Below are positions 13,171-64,000 of a stretch of DNA of 64,000 bases, in pieces (the first letter of the stretch is position 1; each line of letters begins with the position of its first letter). The DNA comes from Indolivaga alginatilytica. Its GTDB lineage: Bacteria > Bacteroidota > Bacteroidia > Bacteroidales > Dysgonomonadaceae. The stretch lies in assembly GCF_003201355.1 (NCBI RefSeq), contig NZ_QICL01000004.1:62001-126000 (forward strand), read 5' to 3'. The notes below the pieces were generated by a model that made no database searches, had not been told where the DNA came from, and was given only the letters and a program-made list of their open reading frames with translations. Position numbers and translations under genes: made by a program.

Positions 13171-13213
13171 CGTTATTACACTTGCCAAAGCAATAAATAG
13201 TTCTGCGAACTTA
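13171..13213 (-). repeat. Dispersed intergenic repeat, copy 2
   Basis: Read on the minus strand, AAGTTC-GCA-GAACT is followed by ATTTATTGCTTTGGCAAG, then TGTAATAACG. The hairpin overlaps the stop codon of the TolC-type gene, so it probably terminates that transcript before the adaptor gene. If so, the adaptor-permease operon has its own promoter in the 126-bp gap; no clear TAnnTTTG box was found there. Confidence 0.7.
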
Positions 13214-14539
13214 ATCTTCTACGACAAATGGCTCTCCTTTATAATAAGCCACCAACTTAAATTTAAGTTGAAATTTAAGTTGGGAGTTTAACTCTTCAGC
13301 TCTTGCCTGTAGCAGGCGATTTGCACTTGTGTGCAATTCCAATGCACTGATAAGCCCTTCCGAGAACTTACGTTCATTCACTTTCTGGGCAACTTCCATT
13401 GCCTCTGTTTGTTTTTTTGCCTGATAATATTCGTCTACCTGTCCGTTCATGTCTGCAACGGCCTGCTCTATCTCACTGTATAGTACCCGCAATGTTTCTT
13501 CACGCTGCGCTTGAGTTATTACAAGCTGTGCTTTTCCTCTTCTTACTTCTGCTGTACGGGAGAAACCGTTGAAAATAGGCACTCGAACCGAGAATCCAAC
13601 ATATCGCCCCATTTTATTCTTGAACTGATACCCAAATGATGAGTATTCGCTACCATCCATATATCTCGAAAAACCTGTAGAGTATCCACCCTCTACGGCT
13701 ATAGTAGGGAATAAACCTCCTTTAGCCGATTTATATGCTAACTCCTGTACTCTCACTGAAGACTCGGCAACTAAAGCCTGAGGCAGAAACGATTTTGAGT
13801 GCTCGAAAATAGTATATGCTGTTTGATCCGACTTAACGACTATATCCAATGCTCCTGCATCGCCTACTTCAAGAGTTTCATCAATTGGATAATTCATTTT
13901 CTCTTTCAGCAAAATAACCCCTATAATGAGGATATTTTTTTGACGTGTCAGACTGTATTTATTAGCCGCTTCCTGTGCTGTCATTTCTGCCACTTCGGGA
14001 AAGCCTTTCACACCCAGCTCCATCATTCGCTGTACCTGTTTCAAGTTGGATGTACTTTCCTCCAGTTCCTGTTCTGCAAGTTTTACTCTTTCAGTATTAT
14101 ATAATACATTATAGAATGCCTCCATCACTTCGTAAGCTATCATATCTTTGGTATACTCCAACTGTTGTCTTCCCAACAATTTATTCACATGCTGCAATCT
14201 CACTCTCGTAACATTCGCTAACCCATCGAACAGAGTAAGTGATGAGTATAAATTGTAATTATTATTAAACGAATTTATATTGGTGTAGGTATTGGTTTCG
14301 GCATCAAGTCCTCTACCAAAGTTGAAAGAGGCCGAAGTGCTTGCATTGATAGATGGCAACAGCTGCCCTATAGCTTCCAGATAATTCTGATGATAAATGC
14401 TATTCTGAGCTTCCTGTTTACTTCTTCTGGGGCTATTCTTTACAGCATACTCCATGCAATCCATAAGAGTCCATTTTTTCTCCTGAGTATAACCTGTAAT
14501 ACTCATCAGAATAAAGAGGATAGTAGCTACGTATTTCAT
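13211..14539 (-). CDS. TolC-family outer-membrane efflux protein
   Basis: I chose MKYVATILFILMSITGYTQ at 14539 as the start because it opens a clean signal peptide. A longer frame to 14599 adds a polar stretch unlike a leader. The mature protein has two outer-membrane efflux repeats with long coiled helices (residues about 140-200 and 340-420) and short strand segments (FNFGRGLD, GFSVRVPIFNGFSR). It should form the trimeric outer-membrane duct of the tripartite system, receiving substrate from the adaptor at 11834-13084. The length of about 442 residues is normal for the family. Confidence 0.92.
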   Translation of the reverse strand: MKYVATILFILMSITGYTQEKKWTLMDCMEYAVKNSPRRSKQEAQNSIYHQNYLEAIGQLLPSINASTSASFNFGRGLDAETNTYTNINSFNNNYNLYSSLTLFDGLANVTRVRLQHVNKLLGRQQLEYTKDMIAYEVMEAFYNVLYNTERVKLAEQELEESTSNLKQVQRMMELGVKGFPEVAEMTAQEAANKYSLTRQKNILIIGVILLKEKMNYPIDETLEVGDAGALDIVVKSDQTAYTIFEHSKSFLPQALVAESSVRVQELAYKSAKGGLFPTIAVEGGYSTGFSRYMDGSEYSSFGYQFKNKMGRYVGFSVRVPIFNGFSRTAEVRRGKAQLVITQAQREETLRVLYSEIEQAVADMNGQVDEYYQAKKQTEAMEVAQKVNERKFSEGLISALELHTSANRLLQARAEELNSQLKFQLKFKLVAYYKGEPFVVED

Positions 14540-14584
14540 AATAATAATTACATTTTTAGTAAAATATAAACCAATTCTATGCCA

Positions 14585-14631
14585 AAAACGACAAATCACT
14601 AATTCATAACCGATTAGTGATTTGTCGTTTT
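14585..14631. terminator. Perfect 19-bp inverted repeat, bidirectional terminator
   Basis: Arms 14585-14603 and 14613-14631 are perfectly complementary around a 9-nt loop, with A-rich and T-rich ends on both strands. It lies downstream of the porin gene and upstream of the TolC-type gene, and probably ends the porin transcript. The unusual arm length could also serve as a protein-binding site. Confidence 0.8.
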
Positions 14632-54084: not shown

Positions 54085-55299
54085 CTACAACAAATTCTTC
54101 ATTGCCTCATCAATCTGTTCATTCTCAAAGCTGTTTAGGTATATTTGAGTAGTTTTTAAATCTGAGTGACCTAAAGTTTCCCCAATCAAAGCTATATTGA
54201 CACCAGAGTTCTTTAGGATAGTAGCATAGCTGTGCCTACTCACATAGGTAGTCAGATTTGCATTAATCCCTGTTATTTTAGCAATCTCTTTTAATGACCT
54301 GTTGACTTTGAGTAATACTTTTTTCCTCCTATTATATTTCTGCATTTCAGTATTGTGAATGGCTTGATTGAGAATAGGGAAGAGAAACCCACTTGTTAAA
54401 CTCTCAGAAGAATACTTTTGAAGTATAGCATTTGCTTCTTCACATAGAGGAATATTGATTTTCTTACCTGTTTTCTGTCTTACATAAATAAGCCTACCCT
54501 CAACAATATTGTTCTGTTTCAGATTAGCAATATCTGAGAAATTGATTCCACTACAGAAATAACTGAATATAAATATATCTTGGGCAAACTGCATATATTC
54601 TCCTTCTTTTGTTAAATCCAAATTCATTATTATTTTGATATTGTCTTTGGATATAGCCCTTTTCTCTGTTTTGATGCTGAATTTTGAGACTTTGAACTCA
54701 TCAAAGGGATAAGTTGCTTTCTTGGCATGTTTAGCCTCTATAGCCTTGTTGTAAACACTCCTGAGAGTTCTAAAGAACATACTCATGCTTGTATCTACAC
54801 AACCTCTCTGTCTTAAATATTTCTCATAGCCTTTTAGGAAATCCAAATCAATATGAGAAAATGGAATATCCAGTTTGTTGTTGGTAAACATCTCTATAGA
54901 CCTTAGAGAGTCTTTGTAGATCCTTGAATTACCTATTCTTCCAGATTGTTCAAATTCAGTTACTAGCTCTTTGTAGAACTCTCCTACAGTTTTGATTATA
55001 TGTTTTGATTTAGGTGCAATGAGTGTAGATGCTGTAAATTCCTGATCTTCTGATTTTAGTTCTAATATTCTTTTCTGATATTCAGCTTCCTTATCTAATA
55101 TGATTTTCAATATTAAATCTTTGTTAGGACAATTTGATTTTGGTCTATTTTTATCAAAATCCCAAAATTGTGGATTAACAGAGATTCCTAAGCTTTTATA
55201 CTTAGACTTTCTATTCATACAGATTCTTAGCATAAGGGGACTTTCTCCATTTGAAAGTTTTTTGTTTTTATAACATACTACATTTACTGTTGTACTCAT
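54085..55299 (-). CDS. int: Tyrosine integrase of the tRNA-Asp element
   Basis: The 404-residue recombinase has an N-terminal arm-binding domain (VNVVCYKNKKLSNGESPLMLRICMN), a SAM-like core-binding domain (about 105-205) and a catalytic domain. Motifs: YFCSGINFSDIANL, where the usual Arg I position is not Arg, as in several Bacteroidota integrases; Lys in VRQKTGKKINIPL; TYVSRHSYAT with Arg II; GHSDLKTTQIYLNSF with His and the nucleophile Tyr. It lies just inside the right attachment site and should catalyse integration and excision at the anticodon region of tRNA-Asp. Confidence 0.92.
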   Translation of the reverse strand: MSTTVNVVCYKNKKLSNGESPLMLRICMNRKSKYKSLGISVNPQFWDFDKNRPKSNCPNKDLILKIILDKEAEYQKRILELKSEDQEFTASTLIAPKSKHIIKTVGEFYKELVTEFEQSGRIGNSRIYKDSLRSIEMFTNNKLDIPFSHIDLDFLKGYEKYLRQRGCVDTSMSMFFRTLRSVYNKAIEAKHAKKATYPFDEFKVSKFSIKTEKRAISKDNIKIIMNLDLTKEGEYMQFAQDIFIFSYFCSGINFSDIANLKQNNIVEGRLIYVRQKTGKKINIPLCEEANAILQKYSSESLTSGFLFPILNQAIHNTEMQKYNRRKKVLLKVNRSLKEIAKITGINANLTTYVSRHSYATILKNSGVNIALIGETLGHSDLKTTQIYLNSFENEQIDEAMKNLL

Positions 55300-55891: not shown

Positions 55892-57145
55892 ATGGCGACA
55901 TTTAAAGAAGTAGTCAGAAAAAGAAGAGGTGACGGAATGTATGCAGTTTACATTCGGGTAACACACAACCGTAAGATTGATTATATCAAGACGGATATGT
56001 ATGTGCATGACGGACATCTAAAGGGTGGAGAAATTACCGACCAGATCGTGAGAGCAAAATGCTCTATCAGAATTAAAGAGTTTTTGGATAAACTGAATTT
56101 GAAGGACACGGATAACTGGACGGTAAAGCAAGTGATGGAGTTTATCAGCAGTAATGACAAAGTTCTGTTTTATCCGTACTGCGATGAATTTGTTAAGAAT
56201 TTAAGAGGGAAAGGTAGGGATAAGACCGCCGAAGGGTACGAAGATGCGATCAAGTCATTCAAGAAGTTTTTTACCGACACTAATCTGGCTTTTCAGGATA
56301 TAAAGAAGAAAGATTTAGGAAAATGGATTGAAACCCTTATGGAAACAGCAAGGGCAAAGCAGAAATACCCTTCCAACATGAAGGCAATATTTGACGCAGG
56401 ACGTGATAAGTACAACGATTACGAGGATAATGTAATTTTTATTGCGAATAACCCATTTTACAAATTAGAAATTCCAAAATGTGATACTCCGCATAAGAAG
56501 GCTACCGATACAGATAGTATAAGGAAATTGTTTTCAGCCAATCCAAAGGGAGAAAGAGACGAAATAGCTCAGGATGTTGCTAAACTAATGATTTATATGG
56601 TCGGTATAAATACAATAGATTTATATGACATGGAGGACTGGAGATTCGAGGGCGGTAAATTACGTTATAACAGGCATAAAACAAGAACAGTAAGAGAAGA
56701 TAAGGCATATACGGAGGTAACTGTCAGACCAGAGATTTTGTATTTATTTGAAAAGTATAAAGGTAAGAATGGTTATCTGTTTAACTTTAAACAAAGATAT
56801 AGTACACCTAAAGGATTCTATGAAAATGTAAATAAGGGTTTGAAGCAGATTTGCGATGATGAAGGTATAAAAAAAATGACGACTAATACTTTGCGTCACT
56901 CTTGGGCTACTGTTGCCAAGAATTACTGTAAAGCATCGGATGAATTGATTGACTTTTGTTTGGTTCATGCTCCCGACAAGAAATTAGCTTGGAAGTATAT
57001 AGATGTAGACTACTCACCTATTGATGAATTGAATAATCAGGTTTTAGATGTAATTTTTAATCCGAAAGTGGATAAAGGAAAGAAAAAGAAAGGTGGTAAG
57101 AATAAAGAGGAAGAAAAGTCAGTAATTAAGGAAGAAGCAGCATAA
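55892..57145 (+). CDS. Tyrosine recombinase/integrase of a second element
   Basis: The 417-residue protein has an arm-binding domain (MATFKEVVRKRRGDGMYAVYIRVTHNRK) and a SAM-like domain. The catalytic domain has MVGINTIDLYDM at the Arg I position, NRHKTRTVRED with Lys, TNTLRHSWATVAKNY with Arg II, and HAPDKKLAWKYIDVDY with His and Tyr. The Lys/Glu-rich tail is unusual. It reads away from the tRNA-Asp gene just upstream, so a second element appears anchored on the 3' side of the same tRNA. Its far end is outside the window. Confidence 0.85.
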   Translation: MATFKEVVRKRRGDGMYAVYIRVTHNRKIDYIKTDMYVHDGHLKGGEITDQIVRAKCSIRIKEFLDKLNLKDTDNWTVKQVMEFISSNDKVLFYPYCDEFVKNLRGKGRDKTAEGYEDAIKSFKKFFTDTNLAFQDIKKKDLGKWIETLMETARAKQKYPSNMKAIFDAGRDKYNDYEDNVIFIANNPFYKLEIPKCDTPHKKATDTDSIRKLFSANPKGERDEIAQDVAKLMIYMVGINTIDLYDMEDWRFEGGKLRYNRHKTRTVREDKAYTEVTVRPEILYLFEKYKGKNGYLFNFKQRYSTPKGFYENVNKGLKQICDDEGIKKMTTNTLRHSWATVAKNYCKASDELIDFCLVHAPDKKLAWKYIDVDYSPIDELNNQVLDVIFNPKVDKGKKKKGGKNKEEEKSVIKEEAA

Positions 57146-57161
57146 AATAATGAATTGTAAG

Positions 57162-57190
57162 AAGGAGAGCCGAAAACGCTCTCCTTTTTT
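57162..57190 (+). terminator. Terminator after second integrase
   Basis: AAGGAGAGC-CGAAAAC-GCTCTCCTTTTTT, 17 bp after the stop. Confidence 0.88.
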
Positions 57191-57212
57191 GTTTTAAATC
57201 TGACTGGGAATT

Positions 57213-57782
57213 TTAGTTATACATACCTTTATTACGTTTAAAGGCACATACAGGACAAAGAGGGTTATCGCAAGGTTCACTTTCTTCTAACATTTCCTCA
57301 AAACTAGGTATTTTGGAAGAAAGAAGCTCGGCGAGGTCGGGAATTTTTTGGGAAATCACTTTTGCTAGTTCGGGTGGTAACTGGTCTAAATCAGGCACTT
57401 TACCTCCATTTTCTATGAGGCTTTTTAAAACTATTAAGGCTTCGAGAGGTGAATCGACAGATAGTTTGACAACCTTTACATTGCCCTTGTTCCTGTAATT
57501 TTCAAAGGCTTGTATTATAAGTCGTGAGATTAAATCATTTTCCCTCATTGCGTTCGTAAGTACTTTGACTGCGGTATCAAATATCTGAGGATTTTGAAAG
57601 TTACCGACATTTACAGAAATGCCTTGCATAACATCTTCTTCGTTTATAGCACCTCCCAGAACTAATGCAAAAGTAGTTTCATCATCCACAGCGTAAATGT
57701 ATTCGTGCAAGAGTTGTACGCTTTCAATAACGTTATCAAACGCTTGATTACCTGTTGTTGCATTTTGTTTTTTAGTTCCCAT
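57213..57782 (-). CDS. Hypothetical protein with C-terminal Cys motif, 189 residues
   Basis: The acidic helical protein contains TTFALVLGGAINEEDVMQGI, a Pro/Leu repeat-like region (VPDLDQLPPELAKVISQKIPDLAELLSSKIPSF) and a C-terminal CDNPLCPVCAFK metal-binding-like motif. No family recognised. The gene is alone, convergent with the second integrase. Confidence 0.55.
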   Translation of the reverse strand: MGTKKQNATTGNQAFDNVIESVQLLHEYIYAVDDETTFALVLGGAINEEDVMQGISVNVGNFQNPQIFDTAVKVLTNAMRENDLISRLIIQAFENYRNKGNVKVVKLSVDSPLEALIVLKSLIENGGKVPDLDQLPPELAKVISQKIPDLAELLSSKIPSFEEMLEESEPCDNPLCPVCAFKRNKGMYN

Positions 57783-57843
57783 AAAATTTCGTTTTATTAA
57801 AATTAGATATATTCGAGTTTTATTCTCGTCAAAATCGGTTTAC

Positions 57844-58692
57844 CTATACTGCTAAATGGAGTTTTCCGTATGTGGATTTGACTTCTTTAGTATTGTTTTG
57901 GTAGCGGCAAATATAGGTCTGTGTCGTTTTGATGTCTTTATGTCCCATTAATGAACAGACCAAAACAATATCCAAAGTGATTTCATAGTTGGTAGTCGCA
58001 AAGGAACGGCGGGCATCGTGGCTGGAGATAAATTTATATTTGGCTCCTGTTTCGACTTTTCCTGCCCTGACGATCTTTACTTCACTATTTATTCCTGCTT
58101 TTTCGCAAATCTGCTTAATAACTTTGTTAAAAGTCTTTTGTGCGTATTTGAAGTTCATTTCTTCATTAATAAGTTGTTCTGTAACGGGGCAACTAATAGT
58201 GTGTACAACATTTTTCGTTTTTTGTGCGAAATATATTATCTCGGAATTAACTATATTGGTGCTATTCAAATGTATTACATCGGAATAACGCATACCTGTA
58301 AGGCAGGATAATAGAAACTGATTGCGTATTGTATGCTCGATTTCATTTTCGGGCTTATAATTTATAAGCAACTGAATTTCATCTAATGTAAGGTATGTGT
58401 TGATTACTCCTACTTTTTTAAGTGTAAGTATATCGGCAAAATCCTGACAAGGCAAATTTATTGCCTCACTGTATTTATTCAGGATAGCTTTGATATGGGC
58501 ACAATAGGTTCTAGCCGAGTTTTGCGATACTTCGTCTAACAGGTATTCGACAAATTCGATCAGAAATAGTTTTGTAAGGTCGTTCCAATCGACTTCTGTA
58601 TTATTGTTGTAGCTTTTCAGATGGTCGAGAACGTATCTTTCCCTAAAGTACTTTTTCTGAAATGCGGTTGTGAATTTTATATTTAGGTTCAT
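57844..58692 (-). CDS. Short tyrosine recombinase, 282 residues
   Basis: It lacks an N-terminal arm-binding domain and starts directly in the SAM-like domain (FTTAFQKKYFRERYVLDHLKSY). All catalytic residues are visible: Arg I in LTGMRYSDV, Lys in FAQKTKNVV, HDARR (His and Arg II), GHKDIKTTQTYI (His and Tyr). It is a complete, probably active recombinase. The 16-bp gap from the 81-residue gene suggests an operon with a recombination-directionality or DNA-binding factor. Confidence 0.85.
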   Translation of the reverse strand: MNLNIKFTTAFQKKYFRERYVLDHLKSYNNNTEVDWNDLTKLFLIEFVEYLLDEVSQNSARTYCAHIKAILNKYSEAINLPCQDFADILTLKKVGVINTYLTLDEIQLLINYKPENEIEHTIRNQFLLSCLTGMRYSDVIHLNSTNIVNSEIIYFAQKTKNVVHTISCPVTEQLINEEMNFKYAQKTFNKVIKQICEKAGINSEVKIVRAGKVETGAKYKFISSHDARRSFATTNYEITLDIVLVCSLMGHKDIKTTQTYICRYQNNTKEVKSTYGKLHLAV

Positions 58693-58708
58693 GGCTTTAT
58701 GTTTTTAA

Positions 58709-58954
58709 TCAATTTTTTACTAAAGTGTCAAACTGAATGGATTTTACAAAGTCGATAATCTTCTGATGATGTTTGTCGGATATTTCGACAAGTTTACCTG
58801 TTGATTTATCTACCGATTCATTCAACGCACAGTTTAAGGTACTACGGTCTATTTCAATTCGTAGTGCTATTTTACTTATATTGAAAAATCCTAAACTCCA
58901 ATTGTGTTTAAGATATTTCCATGCCTGTTCAAAAGTAAGTTCATTTTTATTCAT
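58709..58954 (-). CDS. Small DNA-binding-like protein, 81 residues
   Basis: A helix-turn-helix-like stretch is seen (FFNISKIALRIEIDRSTLNCALN) with basic flanks. Its size and place just upstream of a recombinase gene fit an excisionase or regulator, but no family match is certain. A 20-bp tandem repeat ends 4 bp upstream of its start. Confidence 0.55.
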   Translation of the reverse strand: MNKNELTFEQAWKYLKHNWSLGFFNISKIALRIEIDRSTLNCALNESVDKSTGKLVEISDKHHQKIIDFVKSIQFDTLVKN

Positions 58955-58958
58955 AGTC

Positions 58959-58998
58959 TTGGTTTTTACGAAAAGTCATTGGTTTTTACGAAAAGTCG
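58959..58998. repeat. 20-bp tandem repeat upstream of the 81-residue gene
   Basis: TTGGTTTTTACGAAAAGTCA (58959-58978) is followed at once by the same word ending in G (58979-58998). It lies in the leader of the small DNA-binding-like gene, and could be a protein-binding or recombinase arm site. Confidence 0.75.
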
Positions 58999-59072
58999 TT
59001 AATAATGAAATGGCATACAATTATTTCTATGATGATTGCATGCCATATTCTAGTGATATAATTAGAAGGTTG

Positions 59073-59246
59073 TTAAATCAAATCTATACTATTGTTGGAA
59101 CAAGGTTCAATTTGCATACGATCTTTGGAATCGACAACGATATGCAGTTTTCCGTTTTGTTCGTAAATAAAATATTGCCGACATCCGATAATAATTGTTA
59201 ATCGGTCGGCTTGCTCGGCATCTTTAAGATCGACTTGATAATTCAT
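59073..59246 (-). CDS. Small hypothetical protein, 57 residues
   Basis: The frame begins MNYQVDLKDAEQADRLTIII and ends QIEPCSNNSIDLI. It starts 6 bp after the integrase stop on the same strand, the usual operon spacing. Alternating hydrophobic residues suggest a small beta-rich fold (QYFIYEQNGKLHIVVDS). No family recognised. Confidence 0.5.
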   Translation of the reverse strand: MNYQVDLKDAEQADRLTIIIGCRQYFIYEQNGKLHIVVDSKDRMQIEPCSNNSIDLI

Positions 59247-59252
59247 ATTAAT

Positions 59253-60155
59253 TCAATTTTGGGGTCTAGGTTTAAAAAAAGATTTATCAGACATAAACCT
59301 TGCATTATCACTCTTTTGTATTCTTATATACTTAAAAAATGATTCTTGTGTTGTATGTCCTGTAAGAAGCATTATCCTATACAATGGAATATTCTCAGGT
59401 TGAGAAGCAAAATATAGGTTTGTTGCAAAAGTTCGCCTCCCAGTATGGGGAGTAATTAGTTCATACAAAGAATATACACGTTTATATAATCTTTCCCCTC
59501 TTGTTTTTTCTACTGTAATTGGCTTTGTTAAATTAGCTTTTAAACATATCCTTCGTAATGTTAACCCAAATGATTGTTGTGACGGACTTTGAGGTAGCTT
59601 ATATTTGTATTTTTCTAATATGTTTCTTACAACTGGATGTATTGGTATTTCAACTATATAATTTGTTTTCTGGGTTCGAACCACTATATTAGTACCTATT
59701 ATATTAGGGCTTCTAAGATTGATTGTATCGCTAAAACGAAGTCCAGTATAGCACATTAAGACAAAATAGTCTCTTACGACTTCCGCTTTAGGAGATAATC
59801 TTTTCACGTCAATTATGGCTTTTATCTCTTTTTCAGAAAGAGCAATCGTCTCAGGAGCTTCCCCCTTTACAATAATCGACTGGTAGCCAGAATCAATTTT
59901 AAATTCACGACTTGCTTTATTTAGTATAGTTTGAAGTATTTGAAACTTACATCTGATAGTATTTGGACGGTATTTTTTTGGATGTTGCCTAAGAAATTCG
60001 ACAAAATTCTCAGTGGTATGTTCGGTAAAATCAGAAACTTTTAGGTTTTTATTAAATTTTATTATTAATTCCTTAGTAACTCTGAGTCTATTTTTATACC
60101 TATCGCCACGCAGAGTTGTAGCTATTAATTTATCAATAAATTCTGTTATTTTCAT
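59253..60155 (-). CDS. Tyrosine recombinase, 300 residues
   Basis: A SAM-like domain (KITEFIDKLIATTLRGDRYKN) is followed by a catalytic domain with Arg I in CYTGLRFSDT, Lys in RTQKTNYIV, HTGRRTFAT (His and Arg II) and GHTTQESFFKYI (His and Tyr). All catalytic residues are present. It is the fourth recombinase within 6 kb. The two short recombinases (this and 57844) are about 560 bp apart on the same strand and not closely similar, so they are not a recent duplication. Confidence 0.85.
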   Translation of the reverse strand: MKITEFIDKLIATTLRGDRYKNRLRVTKELIIKFNKNLKVSDFTEHTTENFVEFLRQHPKKYRPNTIRCKFQILQTILNKASREFKIDSGYQSIIVKGEAPETIALSEKEIKAIIDVKRLSPKAEVVRDYFVLMCYTGLRFSDTINLRSPNIIGTNIVVRTQKTNYIVEIPIHPVVRNILEKYKYKLPQSPSQQSFGLTLRRICLKANLTKPITVEKTRGERLYKRVYSLYELITPHTGRRTFATNLYFASQPENIPLYRIMLLTGHTTQESFFKYIRIQKSDNARFMSDKSFFKPRPQN

Positions 60156-60166
60156 ATTATTTGTTT

Positions 60167-60394
60167 TTAGTTATACCGAAATGCGTTTAATTCAGATGCT
60201 TTTTTTCCGTATTTTGCTTTACAAAGGGCATCTGCATATTTTTCAGAACACCATTCACAAAATAAATTGTTACTGTCGGCTATATAGAATCGTGTTTTTG
60301 CATTTATTCGTATTACACCATTGTAGCCTCGAATAATCTTTGTAATTATCCAATTGTCGCTATTTATAACTGCTTTGATTGATATTTTTTTCAT
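60167..60394 (-). CDS. Small hypothetical protein, 75 residues, leader-motif gene
   Basis: I chose ATG 60394 (MKKISIKAVINSDNWIITKI) because the shared leader AAACCTCCGACAA ends directly at this ATG; a longer frame to 60457 would read through the leader. It contains ITKIIRGYNGVIRINAKTRFYIADS and CEWCSEKYADALCKAKYG, with a Cys pair. No family recognised. Confidence 0.6.
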   Translation of the reverse strand: MKKISIKAVINSDNWIITKIIRGYNGVIRINAKTRFYIADSNNLFCEWCSEKYADALCKAKYGKKASELNAFRYN

Positions 60395-60408
60395 TTGTCG
60401 GAGGTTTA
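60395..60408 (-). promoter_or_regulatory. Shared translational leader, copy before 60394
   Basis: TAAACCTCCGACAA directly before ATG, one A shorter on each side of the core than the 63938 copy. Confidence 0.78.
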
Positions 60409-60438
60409 ATTTGATTTTTGATTGATTTACTCGGCTGC

Positions 60439-60654
60439 TTATAATAAGATGCACCATTTACAGTTACCGTCTTTGGTTATCCATGTTTCGGTATAAGATA
60501 CTTCTTTACGCCAACCGTTGAGATACCAGACGTATGATGTTTTGGCTTGAATTGCATCGGAATCCATCATTATTATTTCATGTACTGTTATCTCTGTGTC
60601 GCCTCTTTCAGTCAAAAGGTCGGACACAATTCTTTTTGCTTCATTATCAGTCAT
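60439..60654 (-). CDS. Small hypothetical protein, 71 residues, leader-motif gene
   Basis: Starts MTDNEAKRIVSDLLTERGDTEITVHEIIMM. The C-terminal half is strand-like (TSYVWYLNGWRKEVSYTETWITKDGNCKWCILL). The leader AAAACCTCCGACAAA ends at its ATG. Unknown family, apparently an element accessory gene. Confidence 0.6.
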   Translation of the reverse strand: MTDNEAKRIVSDLLTERGDTEITVHEIIMMDSDAIQAKTSYVWYLNGWRKEVSYTETWITKDGNCKWCILL

Positions 60655-60670
60655 TTTGTCGGAGGTTTTA
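60655..60670 (-). promoter_or_regulatory. Shared translational leader, copy before 60654
   Basis: TAAAACCTCCGACAAA directly before ATG, identical to the copy at 63938 over 15 nt. Confidence 0.8.
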
Positions 60671-60693
60671 ATTAATAAATTTGGTTGAAAAAA

Positions 60694-61503
60694 TTATAAT
60701 TTGTTTAATTCCTTATTTGTTGCTGTAATTACCAACAATCCTGCTTCTAACACTGAACCAGAGACATCAATAAGGCTGTTCATGCGATTTATAAATTTGT
60801 CTCCTTCGCCGTGTTGGTTTAGTGGATCACAGGTAACTAATTCGGGCATAAATATCTTTATATCGCAGCATTTGCCGATAGCTCTTACATATTCGGTGTC
60901 GCCTCTCCTTTTGGCTACCATTTTACCGTATTGGATCGCTTCTTTCCTTTTGTCGGCAGGGAAATATGAAGTGTTCGAGATATTAGAGTTATACCAATTT
61001 TCGACAAACATCGCTGTACCACCGTGATTGTGACCTAATCCGAAGGTATTTACTACATATCGGGGTTCGCCTACTGTGGTGTAGGTGTGTTTGCCGATAA
61101 TGAGGTAGTTGTTGGGCTTTTCTTGAAAGTTTCGTAACTGACATTCTTTGGTGTGTACTTCGTCGCCTTCTCGTATGATTCGGTTGCCAGTCCAATATGG
61201 GAGGTTTTCGGCTGCATTACGAACTTCCTTTATCAGTGCCTTCATAGGATTTAAACCTGATTTACCACAATTTCTTTCACTCTGCTTTATCTTTCTCCAT
61301 AGTTGTCCGTTGTGGTAGAAGTAGGTTTCCCTGCAATTATACTTTTTTACTTTGAAAGCAATTTGTACCTCACTGTATTCTAGCTTTTGGAGGTTTACAG
61401 TAATGGTTTCCTGTTCTACTTTGGTTCTTTGTAGTTTATGTTTACTACTCGGAAAGTAGGCTGTCTCGTATTTGAGATTAACTTGTATTTGAATATTTTC
61501 CAT
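60694..61503 (-). CDS. Hypothetical protein, 269 residues, leader-motif gene
   Basis: ATG 61503 (MENIQIQVNLKYETAYFPSS) is preceded exactly by AAAACCTCCGACCAA; the frame to 61563 reads through the leader and overlaps the upstream gene. It contains YHNGQLWRKIKQSERNCGKSGLNPMKALIKE, TFGLGHNHGGTAMFVENWYN and KDKFINRMNSL-like GDKFINRMNSLIDVSGSV. It is probably a mobile-element protein of unknown role. Confidence 0.62.
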   Translation of the reverse strand: MENIQIQVNLKYETAYFPSSKHKLQRTKVEQETITVNLQKLEYSEVQIAFKVKKYNCRETYFYHNGQLWRKIKQSERNCGKSGLNPMKALIKEVRNAAENLPYWTGNRIIREGDEVHTKECQLRNFQEKPNNYLIIGKHTYTTVGEPRYVVNTFGLGHNHGGTAMFVENWYNSNISNTSYFPADKRKEAIQYGKMVAKRRGDTEYVRAIGKCCDIKIFMPELVTCDPLNQHGEGDKFINRMNSLIDVSGSVLEAGLLVITATNKELNKL

Positions 61504-61518
61504 TTGGTCGGAGGTTTT
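61504..61518 (-). promoter_or_regulatory. Shared translational leader, copy before 61503
   Basis: AAAACCTCCGACCAA directly before ATG. It supports the downstream start choice for the 269-residue gene. Confidence 0.8.
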
Positions 61519-61528
61519 ATGTTTCAGA

Positions 61529-62026
61529 TTAATAGTCTTGGTCGGATTCTTGCGAATGTTCAAAATAGATTTCGGGTTCGGACGTTACGTTATAGATATA
61601 GTTCCCGAATTGTACCAGTAATGCACCTTTGCCGTAAAATTGTTTTTTCATTCCTTCGGGGCTTCCCGTTGCACTGAAATTAGCAAAGGGGGATAAGTCT
61701 ATATTGCTTTCCGCTAAGTGGCGTAAAGGGCGTTTTTTTGCATCCCTTGCATACGGATTGATATAAGATAGTTTGTCTGTTATTTGACAAAGGGTTTCAA
61801 AGTCCATAACTGATAAATCATATTGCAATCCGTTTTGGTCGATTAATAATAACTTTCCGTGCAGATAACATATTTCATCATAAATTGAAGTGTCGGATTT
61901 GATTTTCAAACATGGCTCGCTCACATATTCTGACGGTTCGCCTATCCAGTTGGTAAGTTTCTCCAGTCGGTTTTCTACTTGTTCAAATAGTTCGTTGTAT
62001 CGCTCGTTGAATGTTTTTGTTTCCAT
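61529..62026 (-). CDS. Hypothetical protein, 165 residues
   Basis: It starts METKTFNERYNELFEQVENRLEKL. A middle strand region (CYLHGKLLLIDQNGLQYDLSV) and a GSPEGMKKQFYGKGALLVQFG C-terminal part follow. Its leader is a diverged form of the shared motif (CCCCGACCAGAATT before ATG). No family recognised. Confidence 0.55.
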   Translation of the reverse strand: METKTFNERYNELFEQVENRLEKLTNWIGEPSEYVSEPCLKIKSDTSIYDEICYLHGKLLLIDQNGLQYDLSVMDFETLCQITDKLSYINPYARDAKKRPLRHLAESNIDLSPFANFSATGSPEGMKKQFYGKGALLVQFGNYIYNVTSEPEIYFEHSQESDQDY

Positions 62027-62054
62027 AATTCTGGTCGGGGATTATTAAATTGTT

Positions 62055-62234
62055 TTATTTCTCGGCTTCGTTATAATAGATTGTTAAAGTCCAGCCTTTA
62101 GTAGATTCAGATTGTAGAATTTTCATAATAACACATCGTCCGTCTGTTGTATTATCAGTAAGCCATTCGTTTACACTATTTTCAAGTTTCTCTACTTCGT
62201 TGTGAGTGAATATTTTAATTTTCTGTTTATACAT
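62055..62234 (-). CDS. Small hypothetical protein, 59 residues
   Basis: The frame begins MYKQKIKIFTHNEVEKLENS and ends TLTIYYNEAEK. It is found between two well-supported genes on the same strand: 3 bp after the 269-residue gene and 28 bp before the next. Strong coding bias and tight spacing support it. No family recognised. Confidence 0.55.
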   Translation of the reverse strand: MYKQKIKIFTHNEVEKLENSVNEWLTDNTTDGRCVIMKILQSESTKGWTLTIYYNEAEK

Positions 62235-62237
62235 GAT

Positions 62238-63047
62238 TCATTTTTTTAGTTGATTTTTCGCTTCCCTAAATTCGTTTTTACTGTCCTCAAATTTTGCTGC
62301 TACTGCTTCACAAATGGCTTCCAGTTGTGCAGTAGTAGCTTCTTTAATCCATTCGTAATTTTGATATACAGGTGTTTGCGTGATTTCCCCGTTCTGTAAG
62401 TCAATGGCAATTGACATTATTTCTGTACCAAAATCGGCAATGATGGCTACATACTGAAAATTGAGTTCTAGTGCCAGAATATCGACTGTTACGGGTTCGA
62501 GGTCTGCACTTTCCCATGTGGTGCAAATCTGATTATCTTGAAAATTGACACGGTATAATTGTGTCATAGTTAAGTTGTAGCCATCTTTTTGGAGTTTTTC
62601 TTCTACAAAATGACGGGGATTTATTACAGTGTAACCACCTTCAAAAACGATATTATTATCTTGAACTACATATCTAGTCAGCTTTTGAAGGGTAAAACTT
62701 TGCATTGCTTTTTCGCCTCCAAAATAAAGATGTGCTGTGTCGATGGTGTCAATTGCGTTCGATACGTCCAGTTTGTTCATGTTGCGAGTGTTCCAATAGT
62801 CGTACCCTGCCATTTTGCAAATTTCCCTGAGCTTAATTGTCTTGTAATCTGCTTGGCAAATGAAGTATTTATATGCTTCGGTTCTCAACTCTTTGTCTGA
62901 CTTGCTATTCTGGTCGATTGCATCAAGTATTTGGTAACTCAATTCTTTGTATTCAACTTCATAATCCTTACTTTGGATATAGTTGATTACTGCCTGACGG
63001 AATTTTTCGGATTCCGTCAGGTATTGTTTGTAGGTTAGATTTTTCAT
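62238..63047 (-). CDS. Hypothetical protein, 269 residues
   Basis: An acidic cytoplasmic protein starts MKNLTYKQYLTESEKFRQAV. It contains REICKMAGYDYWNTRNMNKLDVSNAIDTIDTAHLYFGGEKA and a beta-rich VYRVNFQDNQICTTW-like stretch. It starts 3 bp after the stop of the frameshifted gene, indicating one operon. Unknown family. Confidence 0.6.
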   Translation of the reverse strand: MKNLTYKQYLTESEKFRQAVINYIQSKDYEVEYKELSYQILDAIDQNSKSDKELRTEAYKYFICQADYKTIKLREICKMAGYDYWNTRNMNKLDVSNAIDTIDTAHLYFGGEKAMQSFTLQKLTRYVVQDNNIVFEGGYTVINPRHFVEEKLQKDGYNLTMTQLYRVNFQDNQICTTWESADLEPVTVDILALELNFQYVAIIADFGTEIMSIAIDLQNGEITQTPVYQNYEWIKEATTAQLEAICEAVAAKFEDSKNEFREAKNQLKK

Positions 63048-63050
63048 TGT

Positions 63051-63937
63051 CTATACTGAATAATTGGTTAATAAATCTTTTATTTTCCATTCTGCGGAGG
63101 GGTAGGCTTGCCAACATTCGTTGTTGGGCGACCATCGGAAACCGCTACTTTTGAGGGCTGTTCTCATTTTCTCGTCAGGTTTTGAGGGGAAAAACAATTT
63201 TATCCGATTTTCGGCAATGTCTTTTTCGACTGTTACCCCGTTGATGGTATAGGATTCGTTTTCTTTCCCTTCGGCATCGAGGCGTTTTTGCAGTTCGGCG
63301 ATTCGGGCTTCTGTATTTTTGATTTTGGCATTGTTATTAGATAATTGCCATGTCTGAAACCCTTTTTTCTCATAAGAATATGTCGGATTGAGAAGTATAT
63401 AAGCAGTTGCTTTTGAAATACCGAAGTTTGTCAATTCGTCAGAAACTTCTTCCTCTGTTAGTTTTTTGTTACGAACAACTTTGTTTATGGCTTTCATTGT
63501 CTCTTGCCATTCTTTTAGCTCGGACAATTTTTCTTCCTGTTCTTCGATCTCTGAACTAAGGGAGTAGTTTTTCTTTTTCTCCCATCGTTTTACTCTTTGG
63601 GTAATATTCTCACGCCATTCTGAAAACCTTTTATAATGATTGTCAGCCCAACGATTCAATTTTTCCATTCTTCGGACAGGGAAGTTTGATGCACCCGAAA
63701 TAAACGATGAATAAATGGGTGTCTGTGAACCGAGCCATGCACGATATAGTGAAATGTATTTAGTTGTTACCCAATCATGGTATTCGGTAGGGATTTGTGA
63801 CAGTAGATTTTTGACAGTAGATTTTTGAGGTCGTTCGAGTAATCGTTTATATTTCGTTCTGCGGTTGCCTCTGGGTTTGAATAAATGCCACTGCAAGCTC
63901 TTACTGCTAGGTCTTTTAAATCTCTAATTTCTTTCAT
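63051..63937 (-). pseudogene. Gene broken by a 14-bp tandem duplication (290-residue ancestor)
   Basis: The shared leader AAAACCTCCGACAAA ends at ATG 63937, which opens MKEIRDLKDLAVRACSGIYS. After NDYSNDLKNLLS the frame meets a tandem 14-bp duplication (63799-63826), shifts and stops 12 codons later. Removing one unit restores an uninterrupted 290-residue frame continuing QIPTEYHDWVTTKYISLY. The rest carries coiled regions and a C-terminal GVTVEKDIAENRIKLFF…LKSSGFRWSPNNECWQAY segment. That 'GFRWSP' motif occurs in phage and mobile-element DNA-modification or antirestriction-associated proteins. It may be a phase-variable or recently inactivated gene. Confidence 0.75.
63799..63826. repeat. Exact 14-bp tandem duplication
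   Basis: On the plus strand GACAGTAGATTTTT occurs at 63799-63812 and again at 63813-63826. Fourteen is not a multiple of three, so each gain or loss of a unit shifts the frame. Confidence 0.95.
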
Positions 63938-63954
63938 TTTGTCGGAGGTTTTTA
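63938..63954 (-). promoter_or_regulatory. Shared translational leader, copy before 63937
   Basis: The minus-strand mRNA reads TAAAAACCTCCGACAAA directly before ATG. The same word precedes ATGs at 61503 (CCAA end), 60654 and 60394. It contains ACCTCC, the sequence of the 16S anti-Shine-Dalgarno itself, so it cannot pair with the ribosome in the usual way. Confidence 0.8.
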
Positions 63955-64000
63955 TATGATTATTTAGTAATATTTTGAAATGAAATAGTTTGATGCTTTG

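Follow-up and report, generated by a model that had tools for sequence, protein, structure and literature searches.

A gene within a tailed-phage prophage of Indolivaga alginatilytica is split between two reading frames by an exact tandem duplication of 14 bp. It is very likely that this single event inactivated what was an accessory gene of the prophage, most plausibly through slipped mispairing during replication. The reading is built on the duplication, the change of frame, an intact relative of the gene and a conserved N-terminus. Positions without a prefix refer to the window, that is, the whole stretch of 64,000 nucleotides that was analysed, and the main features are collected in Table 1.

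Table 1. Features of the split gene and its surroundings (window positions).
Feature	Position	Strand	Remarks
First 14-bp unit	63799..63812		GACAGTAGATTTTT (plus-strand order)
Second 14-bp unit	63813..63826		identical to the first unit
5' fragment	63767..63937	minus	ATG 63937, 56 codons: 42 conserved N-terminal codons and an out-of-frame tail of 14
3' fragment (body)	63051..63797	minus	248 codons from QIPTEYHDWV and a stop codon; homologue of the intact relative's body
Leader	63938..63953	minus	AAAAACCTCCGACAAA before the ATG; core common to six other module genes
Next gene	62238..63047	minus	269 aa; start 3 bases past the stop of the broken gene; without leader
Prophage part within the window	55892..64000		IMG/VR provirus of 71,200 bp, continuing to about contig C4:189091

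An earlier note on this DNA had reported the duplication as exact, and the two units do agree letter for letter; with the flanking bases, the period-14 self-match covers 17 bases (span 63798-63828). The 28-bp string formed by both units occurs once in the 5.12-Mb host genome. Exact tandem copies with a period of at least 12 were absent from 30 first-order Markov shuffles of the window, while the real window holds two, and four exact tandem copies were counted along 136 kb of the same contig; the 14-bp duplication exceeds chance expectation, and other short tandem duplications are present on the contig too. The window also has an exact 12-bp tandem duplication (AAATTTAAGTTG twice, 13259-13282) of in-frame length, located within the ORF at 13211-14599. 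Farther along the contig, TTTTGATTACGGAT stands twice as an exact 14-bp tandem repeat (L025:10361-10390, contig C4:188361-188390) just ahead of the gene for the prophage repressor (L025:10399-11091), and the two copies could be paired operator sites. The corresponding provirus in IMG/VR agrees at every one of the 12,843 bases compared and carries the same two units; it is probably the same strain and not an independent allele. Since the sequence comes from one strain only, and the genome and IMG/VR records may share reads, an assembly or sequencing error in a genome that truly has one unit has to be considered, but we regard it as improbable: usual reads are longer than the 31-bp span of the repeat, which is thus easily spanned, and genome completeness stands at 99.99%, with contamination at 0.54%.

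Reading from ATG 63937 gives MKEIRDLKDLAVRACSGIYSNPEATAERNINDYSNDLKNLLS and then enters the duplication. A length of 14 does not divide by three, so translation stays in the proper frame only up to codon 42 and ends at 63767, once 56 codons have been read. The body of the gene lies in the -1 frame relative to the 5' fragment and is clean, with no further stop or frameshift across its 248 codons. The two parts add up to the 290 codons counted in the earlier note (42 + 248).

What the unbroken gene looks like can be seen in a relative from the same host family (L004:1396-2280, genome G012), which reads MKTIQDLKQL...NDLNDLLEQIPSDYHSWV... in a single frame of 294 codons and whose protein is identical to one from IMG/VR (L027). 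The alignment to this relative is gap-free at the join of the two halves, with 55% identity and a pN/pS of 0.52 over the N-terminal 42 codons and 67% identity and a pN/pS of 0.28 over the 248-codon body; by these ratios both halves look protein-coding and constrained; synonymous sites are near saturation in this comparison. The repeat is absent from the matching site in the DNA of the relative, and this, together with the gap-free alignment across the join, marks the two-unit state as the derived one. Among 101 genomes of the host family and 393 of the host order, this was the one close intact relative, the remaining relatives being distant, and no other close relative came up in IMG/VR, whether the query was the body, the intact relative or the neighbouring gene. 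The relative also bears on programmed or tolerated frameshifting, in which a -1 slip at the A5 run would yield some full-length product, lengthened by about five residues. Two features would suit such a slip, namely AAAAA within the unit and a body frame offset by exactly -1 from frame 1, but frame 1 has no proper X XXY YYZ heptamer at the site and the relative needs no frameshift, and this explanation seems to us barely credible.

The gene following the body may be affected as well. It is possibly translationally coupled to the broken gene, and the frameshift might lower its translation, because it starts 3 bases past the stop of the body and lacks a leader; a homologue of this gene also adjoins the intact gene in L004, but it is placed before and not after it.

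At the site of the duplication, TCAAAAATC and a near-copy, TCACAAATC (8/9 letters), sit 14 bases apart, and a slip between them would yield exactly the 14-bp unit. As a consequence, the usual product of about 290 residues, with N-terminal helices and a C-terminal half of the kind labelled DUF3560, would not be made, while a truncated protein might still be produced from an internal start. The earlier suggestion of a fresh null mutation is in line with an intact relative lacking the repeat, an N-terminal motif now cut off and 248 codons that have stayed open. The allele is probably recent, because no other stop or frameshift has appeared across the 248 downstream codons, a dating drawn solely from the open frame. 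The gene could be restored if one unit were lost, presumably at the ordinary rate of a two-copy repeat and not at that of an evolved switch.

The start of the gene, which had been assigned on account of a shared leader, is supported from two sides: the core CTCCGACMA precedes seven minus-strand genes of the module, the broken gene included, and the L004 gene has the same beginning behind its own variant of the leader. The strict 17-base form (AAACCTCCGACMAAATG) has three copies in the genome, all within the module, and the element in G012 has its variant, AAACCCGACCAAA, before four genes, among them the intact relative. The longer string ACCTCCGACMA(A) stands right before the ATG in the seven genes, on the minus strand, from the window (60394-64000) on to L003 (67400 on the scale of the window); it resembles the 16S 3' end (CCTCC) and not a Shine-Dalgarno sequence. 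Judged from sequence, the leader has the look of an expression signal that is specific to the element and changes in a concerted way, the variant in G012 being uniform. Promoter-like matches near the gene showed no excess over shuffles. The leader also argues against the body being a shorter functional gene with a start of its own, such as TTG 63896 or an internal ATG. The open frame of the body does extend as far as TTG 63896, across sequence that lacks homology, and some distant relatives (L017, L012) are missing the N-terminal motif, but no leader lies ahead of such a start and the closest relatives retain the N-terminal segment, which makes a shorter gene highly improbable.

Cut off from the body, the 42 N-terminal codons contain a motif that reads roughly A..AF.GTSFSPE.RA and is kept in distant relatives from other genomes of the host order Bacteroidales, on phage contigs and on a Paracidovorax plasmid. 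An AlphaFold2 model of the intact relative places helices at residues 4-15 and 22-42 (block pLDDT 77-92), and the break falls in the turn preceding the helix at 46-65; with a pTM of only 0.47, the relative placement of the parts is uncertain. A Foldseek search of this model against the PDB returned no match with an E-value below 0.001 and hence no fold-based function.

Over most of its length the body matches a mobile-element protein family represented by PHROG 19458 (E = 3.1e-32, residues 63-264) and PHROG 6744 (E = 1.8e-30, residues 120-265), and this copy, whose frame is not intact, is a broken relative of that family. PHROG 19458 is labelled ‘primase’ (e.g. Faecalibacterium phage FP_Toutatis AUV56753), a word from the annotation alone; Pfam and NCBIfam revealed no primase domain, and sequence searches of Pfam, NCBIfam and the PDB left the protein without a family assignment. 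DUF3560 itself gave no match in Pfam at E = 0.01 and did not reach the gathering score, yet tblastn matches carry the DUF3560 annotation. These DUF3560 plasmid proteins, some of them labelled ArdC, align to the C-terminal half at 31-39% identity, and for most of them the alignment is confined to that half. The plasmid search gave matches on 353 plasmids, about half of them conjugative, and the relative in Sinorhizobium fredii adjoins a gene named psiB. The context hints at a mobile-element protein, perhaps a factor in DNA metabolism or host takeover; the papers retrieved on DUF3560 offered mentions only.

In the surrounding element, PHROGs identify genes for terminase, major head protein, tape measure, endolysin, repressor and exonuclease, and tyrosine integrases lie towards one of its ends; such genes together in one stretch mark it as a temperate tailed phage. 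Its boundaries were computed from the contig range of the IMG/VR record. Four tyrosine-recombinase genes are clustered at one prophage end (54085-55299, 55892-57145, 57844-58692 and 59253-60155). The same genome harbours a sibling prophage on another contig (C20:52349-53935, L036; L040-L042), the terminase of which is 85% identical. The broken gene is absent from this sibling, nor did blastn find in it any counterpart of the leader-bearing module to the window side of 66909. Because a sibling prophage in the same genome does without the gene, we consider it accessory and its loss tolerable, and the site marks a prophage gene of that kind. It also matters for annotation, where the one broken gene would appear as two unrelated ORFs and the N-terminal segment of the family would be missed.

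The earlier note had also raised phase variation, in which slippage would add and remove copies of the 14-bp unit at a rate high enough to turn the gene on and off in a population. An exact repeat with a 17-base self-match can indeed contract, but there are only two units, the gene is accessory, the matching site in L004 has no repeat, and a gapped pattern admitting one to three units retrieved from IMG/VR the two-unit allele only, in one record. With no one-unit or three-unit allele in the collections searched, this part of the earlier note finds no support, and we consider phase variation unlikely. A selected reversible switch that keeps the accessory prophage protein off in most lysogens and on in few is, we think, very unlikely. 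If other unit numbers appeared in cultures, this would have a bearing on regulation in gut-type prophages. Nothing found shows on/off switching, and the change is best read as a real but ordinary, probably recent knock-out mutation. In the literature searched on slippage, on phase variation in prophages and on short tandem duplications, nothing had a bearing on this site.

Compared with known systems, the site shares with repeat-based phase-variable genes that the frame depends on how many copies there are of a unit whose length is no multiple of three. Many short units are the usual make-up of known contingency loci, whereas here there are two long ones, no allele variation is seen and the relative lacks the repeat. 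Closer are the spontaneous short tandem duplications made by slipped-strand mispairing, of which classical E. coli lacI mutations are an example: both have an exact adjacent copy, a frameshift, a short direct repeat where the slip is predicted and the potential to revert, and the present case differs in its 14-bp unit and its location in a prophage gene.
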